A stretch of 55,644 nucleotides of DNA from Candidatus Omnitrophota bacterium (GTDB lineage: Bacteria; Omnitrophota; Omnitrophia; JAHJGZ01), in NCBI GenBank assembly GCA_018823795.1, contig JAHJGZ010000134.1, positions 1 to 55,644 of the forward strand, in the 5' to 3' direction. Position numbers and translations under genes: made by a program. Positions 10,623-18,746 of the stretch are shown here, piece after piece. The notes under the pieces are model-generated. The model was not told where the DNA came from. It did no database searches and saw nothing but the letters and a program-made list of their open reading frames with translations. Numbering within the stretch: the first letter of the stretch is position 1; each line of letters opens with the position of its first letter.

Positions 10623-10691
10623 TTAATTCCTGCCGGCAGGCAGGCGCGTGGCTATATTTTATTAATAAACAGTATAATTTTGGTGGGGGAT

Positions 10692-10750
10692 TTAATTCGC
10701 AGACGGCCTAACGGCCTATATTTTACATCGCTATCCTAATGCCGTAAATT
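10692..10750. repeat. GCAGACGGCC repeat module, copy A
   Basis: The stretch TTAATTCGCAGACGGCCT, ACGGCCTA, then TTTAC and GTAAATT is repeated at 18322-18384 (copy B). In copy B the two ends pair as GCAGAC/GTCTGC, while in copy A the outer pairing is degraded. This copy lies directly upstream of the GIY-YIG element. Confidence 0.65.
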
Positions 10751-10764
10751 ATAATCGAAGCCAG

Positions 10765-11041
10765 CCCCGTTAGAGATGCAACATGTATTATATATACATA
10801 TTACGAAGTAAAAAAGATAATCGTTTTATATACAGGTTTTACACGTGATTTACGGAAACGCTTCAGTCAGCATAATAAAGGGGCTATTGTTGCGACAAAA
10901 AGAAGGAAACCGTTTGAACTTATTTATTATGAAGCGTGTTTACATAAAGAAGACGCAATTAAGAGAGAAAAGTATTTAAAAACGGGGATGGGAAAACGTT
11001 TTTTACAAAATAGACTGAAGCGCTTCCTATCTCTAACGGGG
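10765..11041 (+). mobile_element. 277-bp TIR element carrying a GIY-YIG gene
   Basis: The ends CCCCGTTAGAGAT (10765-10777) and ATCTCTAACGGGG (11029-11041) are perfect 13-bp inverted repeats. The same ends bound two 135-bp copies and a shorter one elsewhere in the window. Its interior codes for a GIY-YIG nuclease whose last codons lie in the right terminal repeat. No 4-bp target duplication is visible here (CCAG left, TAAA right). The right end abuts the TAAAGGAGG ribosome binding site of the next gene. Confidence 0.75.
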
Positions 11042-15972: not shown

Positions 15973-17913
15973 TTACACCCTCAGTTGCTTCTCGGCATCT
16001 ATAATATCTTTGTTGATAAGATTGAGGGCATGGTGTGCAGTTTCTTTTAAATGCTGCTGTGCGCCGTGTGCGCTGCAGATTTGCCGCAGAAGCTGAATTA
16101 CCATACGAAAATAGCGCACAATTTCTCCTTCATCGACAGAAGCAATTTCTATAATGTCGGAAAATTTCTTTCCTTTGAGCCATGCTTCTAAGGCAGGAGC
16201 AAGATTGAAATGACACGATTTTGAATAGGGGCGAATTGTATGTTTATGTTCTTTGCTGTGAATGCGACGAATATAACTTTCTGTATGACGAATAAGTTGT
16301 TGTATCTGTTTTGAATACGAAGGGATATAATCTCCTTTGCGGGGCTCAAAAATCAAGCCAATGAGAATAATGCTTAACTCGGTTTCATTAAGTGTATCAA
16401 GAAAACCATCTGCATGCATTTCAGACAGGGCTAATTCATAGCCGTAGAGTGATGATGCAAACTCCCCCTTTGGCGTTACCGTTTCTTCAGTCATATATTC
16501 CATTTCTTCTAAGAGTTTTAATTTACGTTCGAGGAGATTGTAGCCAACGCGGCGTCTTTTTTTTGAAGATTGAAAAAAATGAAAGGAACGTGGATACACC
16601 GATAGCAAATTCCGTCCAAATTGCTTATATAAATTGAGGACGGTGGCATAGGTTGCATTGAATTGACTGGTTACTTCTTCAGATTTTCCGTAAATGATTT
16701 TTTGTACTTCATGATATGAAATATATCGTGGATTAATACGGGAATACACAAATCCACATTCGTCCATGCCTCGTCGACCGGCCCGCCCTGCCATTTGGTA
16801 ATAATCACGCGTACGTAAGTTGCCGAAATGAGTGCCGTAAAATTTTCTCAGTTCATCAAATACCACGCTGCGGGCAGGCATGTTTATGCCGAGGGCGAAT
16901 GTCTCTGTGGTAAAGATCAGTTTGAGTGCTCTGTGCGTGAAAAGTTGTTCAACCACTTCTTTTAAAGTGGGCAGCATTCCCGCATGATGATACGCAATTC
17001 CCCGACGCACAAGGTCAAAAAGTTCTCGGGCCGACCGTTCTTCGGTTAAATTGTACTTTTCACATAAGTCCCAAAAGAGAGCGCGGGTGTTTTCTTCTTC
17101 CTCAATTGCAAGAAAATTAAATGACATCATTTCTTCTGCCAGGCATTTTGCGCGGTGGCGGCTAAAAACAAAAAATATACAAGGGAGTTCTTTTGCATCT
17201 TGAATATGGCTTACGAGGGCGGCAAGACGGTTTGGTTTAATTTTAGGAAAATGTCGACGCCCTCGACGATGACGATATTCATGATGCCAATCATCGCAGT
17301 GTAAAAATCCTTGTGTGCTTAACGCTTTACTGCTGCGCACAATGTGTCCCTGGCATTGAAACCGGTGTTCAAGAGGAACTGGCCGTTTTGCTTCGATAAT
17401 GACGCGAATGGGGCGGTTGTGAATCGATTCTATCCACTGGGCCAGTTCTGTGATATTTGGTACCGTAGCACTTAAACAAACAAAGTTGATGTGTGATGGT
17501 GAAAACATAATTGATTCTTCCCATACCGTTCCTCGTTCGACATCGTCTAAATAGTGCACCTCATCAAAAACAACCCATGCAACATGTTTCACCCGGTTTA
17601 TATTTTCAAATAAGGTGTTACGATATATTTCCGTAGTCATAATAAGAATAGGTGCGTGTGTGTTGATGGAGACATCTCCGGTAAGGATACCGACCTTTTC
17701 TTCTCCATAACGGGCACGAAAATCACGGTACTTTTGATTACTCAATGCTTTTATCGGAGCAGTATAAATAGCTGATTTACCAGAAGACATGGTTTTTTCA
17801 ATGGCATATTCTGCAATGACTGTTTTTCCCGCACCGGTCGGTGCAGACACAATAATGGTTTCATCCTTGTCTATATGTGCAATGGCCTGTTTTTGAAAAT
17901 CATCGTAGATCAC
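15973..17913 (-). CDS. Ski2-like DEAD/DEAH-box helicase
   Basis: The 646-residue protein starts with a Q-like 'DDFQKQAIAHIDKDE' and has Walker A 'SAPTGAGKTVIAEYA', motif Ia 'YTAPIKALSNQKYRDF', the DExH box 'VVFDEVHYLDD', motif III 'CLSATVPN', and C-terminal motifs 'GIAYHHAGML', 'TTETFALGINMPARSVVF' and 'YYQMAGRAGRRGMDE'. These mark the Ski2/Mtr4 branch of RNA helicases (HelY-like). It is shorter than actinobacterial HelY (~900 residues), and its C-terminal helical part (~430-646) replaces a full DSHCT region. It is likely an ATP-dependent RNA helicase in RNA processing or decay. It is transcribed against the phosphate operon. Confidence 0.9.
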   Translation of the reverse strand: MIYDDFQKQAIAHIDKDETIIVSAPTGAGKTVIAEYAIEKTMSSGKSAIYTAPIKALSNQKYRDFRARYGEEKVGILTGDVSINTHAPILIMTTEIYRNTLFENINRVKHVAWVVFDEVHYLDDVERGTVWEESIMFSPSHINFVCLSATVPNITELAQWIESIHNRPIRVIIEAKRPVPLEHRFQCQGHIVRSSKALSTQGFLHCDDWHHEYRHRRGRRHFPKIKPNRLAALVSHIQDAKELPCIFFVFSRHRAKCLAEEMMSFNFLAIEEEENTRALFWDLCEKYNLTEERSARELFDLVRRGIAYHHAGMLPTLKEVVEQLFTHRALKLIFTTETFALGINMPARSVVFDELRKFYGTHFGNLRTRDYYQMAGRAGRRGMDECGFVYSRINPRYISYHEVQKIIYGKSEEVTSQFNATYATVLNLYKQFGRNLLSVYPRSFHFFQSSKKRRRVGYNLLERKLKLLEEMEYMTEETVTPKGEFASSLYGYELALSEMHADGFLDTLNETELSIILIGLIFEPRKGDYIPSYSKQIQQLIRHTESYIRRIHSKEHKHTIRPYSKSCHFNLAPALEAWLKGKKFSDIIEIASVDEGEIVRYFRMVIQLLRQICSAHGAQQHLKETAHHALNLINKDIIDAEKQLRV

Positions 17914-18401
17914 AATAAATACATTATAAGTAAGTTGCTCGGAAAAGGATAGTTAAAAGTGTTAACATTGGCATTATGTACCTTGGAAATTGGCGGCCAT
18001 GAAATTCCATTGACTTTTTAGTAAATTTCATTAGTATAGGTATCTACAATTTACATGTAGACACAGCTTAACGAACGTCGTGAAGTTAAGTTGCTAGTCT
18101 GAATGTGTCCAGCACCCAGTATATAAAACGGATTCTGGGTGCTGGATACATTGCTTGCCACAACCTAATATGGCAGGGGTAACTTGAAAACAGTACCCCG
18201 GTTAGACGATAGTTGATACGCTGTCTAACGGGGTATGTGAAGACATAACTTATGGAGTTTGAAAAACGACATAAGTTACTAGTCTGACCAAATACTTTAC
18301 CTGCCAGTCGGCAGGTAAAGTATTAATTCGCAGACGGCCTTACGGCCTACAATTTACGTCACATATGTTCCGTAAATTGTCTGCTCATTAAAGGAGATAA
18401 C
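17914..18401. other. 488-bp gene-free interval built of consecutive hairpins
   Basis: No gene is seen here. Inverted repeats follow one another: TCTACA/TGTAGA, CTTAAC/GTTAAG, CCAGCACCCAG/CTGGGTGCTGG (11-bp perfect stem), TTGCCA/TGGCA, TACCCCG-GTTAGAC/GTCTAACGGGGTA, ACTTATG/CATAAGT, AATACTTTACCTGCC/GGCAGGTAAAGTATT (15-bp perfect stem, 18291-18324), and the GCAGAC module at 18330-18384. The second and sixth hairpins are both followed by CTAGTCTGA, so a unit is repeated. It could be a structured RNA or a stack of palindromic element insertions. Confidence 0.7.
18330..18384. repeat. GCAGACGGCC repeat module, copy B (stem-loop)
   Basis: The outer stem GCAGAC/GTCTGC continues through an inner ACAATTTACG/CGTAAATTGT 10-bp stem with a side GGCC/GGCC pair. 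The sequence is shared with 10692-10750. It lies in the 5' leader of the next gene, 6 bp before its AAAGGAG ribosome site, so it could affect that gene's expression. Confidence 0.7.
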
Positions 18402-18746
18402 ATGGCAGAAGAAGAGAAAAAAGAAGAGGCGAAGGAAGAAACAAAAGAAGAAAAGAAAGAAGAAACAAGAGAAGAAAAGAAAGAAGAAACAAAAGAAGAA
18501 AAGAAGGAAGAAACAACGCCGGAGAAGAATGCGGAACACGTAGAAAAGCCGGCTGAGGGGCAAGCACAGGATGCTCAGCCAGCAGGCGAGACAGCAAAAG
18601 GTCCTGCAAAAAAGAAAAAGATAGCGCGAATGGATATTAATGAGATTGAAAAAGCGTTAAAGCACGTAAAGGAAAAAATGGGGGGTATGGGCTCTCATTA
18701 CGCTCAACAACTTCTCAAAAGGAAGGATGCGTTAAAACAACAATAA
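18402..18746 (+). CDS. Lys/Glu-rich low-complexity protein with short C-terminal helix domain
   Basis: The 114-residue protein begins with ~45 residues made almost only of Lys, Glu and Thr in a KEETKEEKKEET-type repeat, then a Pro/Ala/Gln-rich linker, then a predicted helical C-terminus ('MDINEIEKALKHVKEKMGG' and 'YAQQLLKRKDALKQ'). I do not recognise the family. The C-terminal helices could be a small interaction domain. AAAGGAG at 7 nt supports the start. The minus-strand ORFs in the track over this region (Phe/Leu-rich) are shadows of the repeat. The codon repeats (gaagaaa) could expand or contract by slippage. Confidence 0.7.
   Translation: MAEEEKKEEAKEETKEEKKEETREEKKEETKEEKKEETTPEKNAEHVEKPAEGQAQDAQPAGETAKGPAKKKKIARMDINEIEKALKHVKEKMGGMGSHYAQQLLKRKDALKQQ

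Follow-up and report, generated by a model that had tools for sequence, protein, structure and literature searches.

Stacked GA-hairpin elements in a gene leader of an Omnitrophota bacterium: a probable REPIN-like family with a GIY-YIG nuclease as putative partner

Introduction

REP-type repeats are among the commonest repeats in bacterial genomes, and their known mobiliser is the Y1 transposase RAYT. The REP-associated Y1 tyrosine transposase is encoded by a gene that is itself flanked by REPs (PMC2817692), and the palindromes carry a GTAG/CGTC tag (PMC3733652). REPINs are short imperfect palindromes that occur in high copy number between genes, arranged as inverted pairs (PMC3116915).

Here we analyse a 488-nt interval (positions 17914–18401) of a 55,644-nt contig from a Candidatus Omnitrophota bacterium (GenBank assembly GCA_018823795.1, contig JAHJGZ010000134.1); the whole contig is called the window. 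The interval resembles a REPIN array in being built of palindromes that recur across the genome as inverted pairs; the family differs in the gene that its full-length copies carry between the palindromes, which encodes a small GIY-YIG nuclease. We put at roughly two in three the probability that it holds two stacked, REPIN/BIME-like selfish elements in the 5' leader of the next gene, with a GIY-YIG nuclease instead of RAYT as the partner gene.

Results

The minimum free energy of the 488 nt was −163.9 kcal/mol, compared with −114.1 ± 6.2 for dinucleotide shuffles (z = −8.1, with 0 of 100 shuffles equal), and the opposite strand gave a z of −8.6 against shuffles. Inverted repeats were detected at H3a and H3b (Table 1), and at 18246–18278 and 18349–18380. 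The run of consecutive hairpins reported in a preliminary description of the interval is thus real, as is its 15-bp perfect stem, which is that of H3b. The structured part, the mosaic proper, extends from 18050 to 18396, while the first ~130 nt (17914–18049) are ordinary upstream sequence that precedes a divergent helicase gene and recurs nowhere else in the assembly. That neighbour (15973–17913) encodes a helicase of the Ski2-like DEAD/DSHCT type and starts with GTG. When we searched the organism's own assembly (3.19 Mb in 250 contigs; genome G000, in which the window is contig C178), various pieces of the interval gave 72 DNA matches, and copy counts from this assembly are to be read as lower bounds. 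The preliminary description had proposed such a genome search and had named a lack of other copies of any hairpin among the results that would speak against it; other copies proved abundant. It had also noted a tail, CTAGTCTGA, shared by two hairpins. Both exact copies are present in the interval and the 3.19-Mb assembly holds no others, so that the hairpin, and not the 9-mer itself, is the repeat.

Several other readings of the interval were considered. No tRNA was detected in it, and a comparison with Rfam returned no family above its gathering score, the hits being microRNA hairpin models alone, far under threshold. A terminator reading was dropped, there being no T-run 3' of the hairpins, as was a promoter-like site at 18010–18037, which is at chance level (4 found, 3.4 expected). 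The motifs GTTAGAC/GTCTAAC in module H1 are similar to integron core sites, and an attC-like reading was in turn abandoned because the order of the core sites is reversed and the other hairpins carry no such motif. A draft, metagenome-type assembly in many contigs might be thought to produce a coincidental run of hairpins or an artefact. This idea is already refuted by the fold statistics above, by the identical module order in many contigs and by the presence of the unit in 236 other genomes.

When the pieces were mapped over the assembly, recurring modules in a recurring order were found: H1, H2, H3 and H4, followed by AAGGAG and a start codon. H1 reads CCCGRTTAGAC..GTCTAACGGG, H2 reads TGAAGAC..stem..GTCTGAA, H3 is a variable palindrome, and H4 reads TTAATTCGCAGACGGCC..GGCCTA..stem..TCTGCTCATTAA. 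Comparison of the alignments revealed that H4 is a reversed H2 with an additional GGCC hairpin at the two-base bulge of H2. The underlying unit is an imperfect hairpin of ~60 nt with tandem G.A mismatches, which we named the GA hairpin.

To describe the unit, 33 H2-type copies from the same genome were aligned over 71 columns, yielding the structure 5' TAAAT-GA-RGNC..TTACG-GA-AC(loop)GT-GA-CGTAA..GNCY-GA-ATTTA 3', in which tandem G.A mismatches separate the stem segments; the consensus, TAAATGAR...YGAATTTA, has no GTAG or CGTC tag. In these copies 89.5% of cells were paired, compared with 70.7% after shuffling, and 164 cells had changed on both sides, compared with 54 in shuffles. The outer tandem GA/GA was present in 33/33 copies, an invariance that is partly due to selection of the copies, because the pattern used to pick them required part of the GA/GA. 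Among 124 distinct copies found by a covariance model (CM R1), the four GA/GA positions were G, A, G and A in 111–115 of ~117 lettered copies, and the 2521 stem cells comprised 2335 Watson-Crick pairs, 53 G.T and 60 A.C. A GA strand that functioned as RNA would be expected to accept G.U more readily than A.C. As G.U is no commoner than its antisense counterpart A.C, neither strand is favoured as RNA. We interpret this as selection, or a copying process, acting at the level of DNA, a reading strengthened by the fact that a transcript would contain one hairpin of each element as its GA strand and the other as the complement.

The mosaic holds two such elements stacked in the 5' leader, the upstream one truncated, and they stop where the next gene's Shine-Dalgarno sequence begins (Table 1). 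In the upstream element, H2a is an imperfect palindrome with tandem G.A mismatches, and other copies in the genome match it at ~80% identity. The arms of H3a contain CCAGCACCCAG/CTGGGTGCTGG, and matching arms enclose a GIY-YIG gene at L062/L025; at L025:4524 the arm is ACCCAGCACCCAG and the GIY-YIG gene lies in a 248-nt loop. The small hairpin that follows, which has no clear family, is probably a remnant of the element's lost right end. The hairpin TACCCCGGTTAGAC/GTCTAACGGGGTA of the preliminary description is present as H1, its left arm longer by one G. The likeness drawn there between a TACCCC..GGGGTA hairpin and the ends of a TIR family was well founded: the arms of H1 are similar to CCCCGTTAGAGAT/ATCTCTAACGGGG, which flank a GIY-YIG gene elsewhere in the window. 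In the downstream element, copies of H2b occur elsewhere at 90% and 87% identity. H4 was delimited from a 16-sequence alignment that included two relatives, has a 96% identical copy in contig C129, and gives a partial R1 match on the minus strand (18348–18380). The 114-aa product of the gene that follows had no Pfam match. The GIY-YIG gene of the window cassette is frameshifted, and the cassette is directly followed by AAAGGAGG and then the next ATG.

Table 1. Features of the stacked elements and of the GIY-YIG cassette (window coordinates)
Feature	Position	Strand	Observation
H2a, GA hairpin of upstream element	18050–18109	+	GA strand on +; CM R1 match, 48.8 bits
H3a, inner palindrome of upstream element	18102–18152	.	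Inverted repeat, 21-nt arms, 90%
Small imperfect hairpin TTGCCA..TGGCAG	18156–18181	.	From sequence and fold; one weak copy elsewhere
H1, gene-less cassette palindrome TACCCCGGTTAGAC..GTCTAACGGGGTA	18194–18235	.	~10 genomic copies
H2b, left-end GA hairpin of downstream element	18232–18294	+	GA strand on +; CM R1 match, 57.8 bits
H3b, gene-less inner palindrome AATACTTTACCTGCC/GGCAGGTAAAGTATT	18291–18324	.	15-nt perfect (100%) inverted repeat; many copies
H4, right-end GA hairpin of downstream element	18323–18389	-	Inverted, GA strand on -; extra GGCC-hairpin insert at 3' bulge
Shine-Dalgarno AAAGGAG of next gene	18390–18396	+	Abuts H4 end; conserved at H4 ends in the 16-sequence alignment
Downstream gene, 114 aa, Lys/Glu-rich	18402–18746	+	Outside element; ATG at 18402
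GIY-YIG cassette	10765–11041	+	Gene enclosed by CCCCGTTAGAGAT/ATCTCTAACGGGG, inverted repeats of 13 bp, perfect
Broken H4-type GA hairpin beside GIY-YIG cassette	10692–10752	-	89% identity to H4; weak partial R1 match at 10717–10752

The GA hairpin is abundant in its own genome, with 147 CM R1 matches at E <= 1, ~140 of them strong, numbers that are lower bounds since 150 of 1354 candidates were scored. Across the class, matches were found in 24 of 49 genomes, from one to over a hundred in each, and a sample of the phylum gave matches in 237 of 384 genomes from dozens of families; none were found in four unrelated whole genomes (from Gammaproteobacteria, Planctomycetaceae, Herbinix and Bacillota). 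Most mapped copies in the organism's own genome are intergenic (96 of 107). In the 43 gaps between co-directional genes, the hairpins follow the patterns S, SA, SS, SSA, SASA or A, where S has the GA strand in the sense and A in the antisense direction, and every such gap with more than one hairpin begins with S. The order of the inverted pair, plus then minus, is also seen in relatives. The upstream stop codon is overlapped or touched by 19 of 35 sense-first hairpins, and most antisense-last hairpins end 8–21 nt before the next start codon; gene positions for this analysis came from a simple ORF picker, and single distances may be off. A Shine-Dalgarno sequence is present in 22 of 104 outer flanks and 0 of 104 inner flanks, compared with 1.6% of random 20-mers. 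The downstream genes, which include rpsO, groES, ilvN, guaB, queC and rpsI, are unrelated and belong to no single pathway or gene class.

Three side observations concern the setting of these hairpins. The short palindrome CCTGCCTGCCGGCAGGCAGG has 14 copies in 371 kb of G000 loci, where 0.02 would be expected, one of them at 10629–10640 of the window, and often lies inside a loop or between the modules of GA-hairpin elements. At five loci in other genomes of the phylum (L152, L155, L158, L170 and L172), a GA hairpin starts directly after the T-run of an apparent terminator. At L173:1501–1713, three near-identical units, each a GA hairpin with a short palindrome, form a direct tandem.

Comparison of orthologous sites within genera revealed filled and empty states. 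Between ribF and rpsO, G045 carries an element of ~430 bp where its genus mates G010, G044 and G046 have a gap of 10–15 nt; between ilvB and ilvN the site is filled in G029 and is a short gap in G006 and G007, all of one genus; and in the leader of guaB, G006 has an element that five of its genus mates lack. In addition, at L055 (G000:C73) a 111-bp gene-less palindrome of H1 type (CCCCGTTAGAG type) interrupts a GIY-YIG gene that is uninterrupted in its paralogue L051. As regards direct target-site duplications, the host sequence at the edges of this clean insertion is TTTA before and TAAA after, an inverted and not a direct repeat, and TAA-like sequence flanks many copies on both sides. The polarity of insertion and the ends are regular, and most copies have diverged. 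With parts that recur dozens of times across the genome and orthologous sites in same-genus relatives that are free of such elements, two of the readings offered in the preliminary description, nested palindromic insertions and a site where elements collect, are both borne out.

Its third, a structured non-coding RNA, is not supported. One such RNA would be a cis-acting structured leader, serving as a riboregulator or as an intercistronic site of mRNA stabilisation or processing and retained before many genes for its action in the transcript, with the GIY-YIG genes as incidental passengers. Such a leader would agree with the very stable fold and the strong covariation, with the position between stop codon and Shine-Dalgarno, with an orientation fixed to that of the downstream gene and with the conserved Shine-Dalgarno-proximal end of H4. 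However, the near-equality of G.U and A.C in the stems favours neither strand, the paired hairpins are opposite in sense and so present opposite strands to the transcript, the downstream genes have nothing in common, orthologous genes in the same genus do without the element, and Rfam gave no match above gathering score. We therefore consider an RNA leader improbable.

The insertion reading is joined to the GIY-YIG genes by a further set of loci. Eight copies, from six genomes, have a GIY-YIG gene or what is left of one inside the inner palindrome; most copies have kept the arms only. Loci with the gene between hairpins are L025/L062 and L038/L056 in the organism's own genome and L124, L125, L133, L147 and L154 in relatives; in this genome and five relatives, loops of 232–285 nt encode a GIY-YIG protein of one domain, intact or damaged, and L032 has a remnant in a 102-nt loop. 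The surroundings differ, with L124 lying between ribF and rpsO, L133 between lysC and cimA, and L125 before groES, which has a complete element on one side and a gene-less element on the other. At L038:2797–3235 (G000:C235), a complete element, whose GIY-YIG gene is open and lies within CTTGACGTTTTGCC repeats, immediately precedes a queC-like gene. The GIY-YIG gene in these elements is oriented like the downstream host gene. In gene-less copies the median loop length is 15 nt; several of these copies use the arms of gene-bearing ones (CCAGCACC.., CCCCCACACC.. and CTTGACRTTTTGCC..), and in some the GIY-YIG gene survives as its 3' end (L023, L024, read by eye, and L032). With these shared arms and retained 3' ends, the gene-less copies look like derivatives by internal deletion.

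All seven proteins tested matched PF01541 (E 4e-7 to 2e-17), and the catalytic residues are conserved, with Tyr5, Tyr15, Gly17, Arg25, His29, Glu49, Arg60, Glu61 and Lys65 invariant. The nearest solved structures are UPF0213 proteins (PDB 1zg2, E 2e-13; 1ywl), followed by SLX1. At 8 of the 10 stand-alone GIY-YIG loci of the genome a GA hairpin lies within 1.5 kb. This exceeds chance, because by our estimate at most ~15% of the genome would lie so close even if all 147 matches were isolated, although the true density of hairpins is higher than this figure assumes, 150 of 1354 candidates having been scored. None of the five Y1-transposase loci in the same genome has a GA hairpin within that distance.

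These proximities bear on a further explanation, in which the hairpins are moved by RAYT/Y1, by another transposase, or by replication slippage or recombination, and the GIY-YIG cassette, as a selfish element in its own right, inserts preferentially between GA hairpins. The genome does have five Y1-transposase genes, H1-type palindromes act as independent insertions, and the GIY-YIG cassette also occurs with its inner inverted repeats but no adjacent intact GA hairpins (L053; window 10765); some GIY-YIG copies (L053 and L058) have no GA hairpin nearby. On the other side stand the 0/5 result for the Y1 loci and the fact that several distant genomes have a GIY-YIG gene exactly between GA hairpins in inverted orientation. 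We regard such a separate mobiliser as unlikely.

Discussion

In the reading that we favour, of REPIN/BIME-like elements with a GIY-YIG partner gene, a complete element of ~430 bp consists of a GA hairpin, an inner inverted repeat, the GIY-YIG gene, the second inner inverted repeat and an inverted GA hairpin. Most copies, including the two stacked ones described here, have lost the gene and kept the palindromes, and insertion occurs mainly between a stop codon and the Shine-Dalgarno sequence that follows it, in fixed orientation. From position only, we infer that the GIY-YIG nuclease is the mobiliser. The protein may recognise the tandem-G.A hairpin in single-stranded or extruded DNA and nick at the hairpin base; the element would then enter the gap between a stop codon and a Shine-Dalgarno sequence by copying or pasting, and its gene-less relatives would be moved in trans. 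A target that takes in the Shine-Dalgarno sequence would account for the fixed polarity, as would selection against insertions of other kinds.

A broader proposal is that these elements form a new class of mobile element, characterised by a GIY-YIG nuclease, tandem-G.A hairpin ends, a length of ~430 bp, a structured single-strand intermediate, stop-codon/Shine-Dalgarno targets and gene-less copies throughout the phylum, and that the REP/RAYT lifestyle has thus originated a second time, independently. We offer it tentatively, as somewhat less likely than not. A phylum-wide family with a GIY-YIG nuclease as partner would show that the REP way of life arose also with a different enzyme. It would hint at what some small stand-alone GIY-YIG proteins, left unexplained by annotation, do, with the GA hairpin as a testable substrate. 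The family also accounts for numerous long leaders and intercistronic regions of an uncultured phylum, which might be mistaken for riboswitches.

A literature search, which covered few subscription papers, found no description of a GA-hairpin family and no link between GIY-YIG proteins and REP-like repeats; word searches of a 2023 Omnitrophota survey and of the RepRanger paper likewise found no mention of such a link. The novelty of the family is not proven by this.

Among described proteins, the closest are the stand-alone GIY-YIG proteins of UPF0213/COG2827, which share the single-domain fold of 76–92 aa and include the nearest solved relatives; the genes described here differ in lying inside inverted repeats, between GA hairpins. 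SLX1, the next structural match, is a structure-specific nuclease. The Ssn family of Neisseria comprises single-domain GIY-YIG nucleases that cut repeated sequences in single-stranded DNA site-specifically, an enzyme type similar to the protein encoded here that we take as a lead only.

Among mobile elements, MITEs are comparable in that gene-less derivatives retain terminal palindromes, whereas the parent element here encodes a GIY-YIG nuclease and no DDE transposase. Subterminal hairpins, asymmetric strands and a small nuclease gene are shared with IS200/IS605, which however has an HUH enzyme and no GIY-YIG protein, and whose end hairpins are not known to be inverted relative to each other. 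The likeness to REPINs and BIMEs is that GA hairpins are high-copy and extragenic, form inverted pairs, and are found more often without a nuclease gene between them than with one. GA hairpins are, however, longer (~60 nt), have tandem G.A in place of GTAG/CGTC, are paired around a second palindrome, and flank a GIY-YIG gene instead of one for a Y1 HUH transposase.
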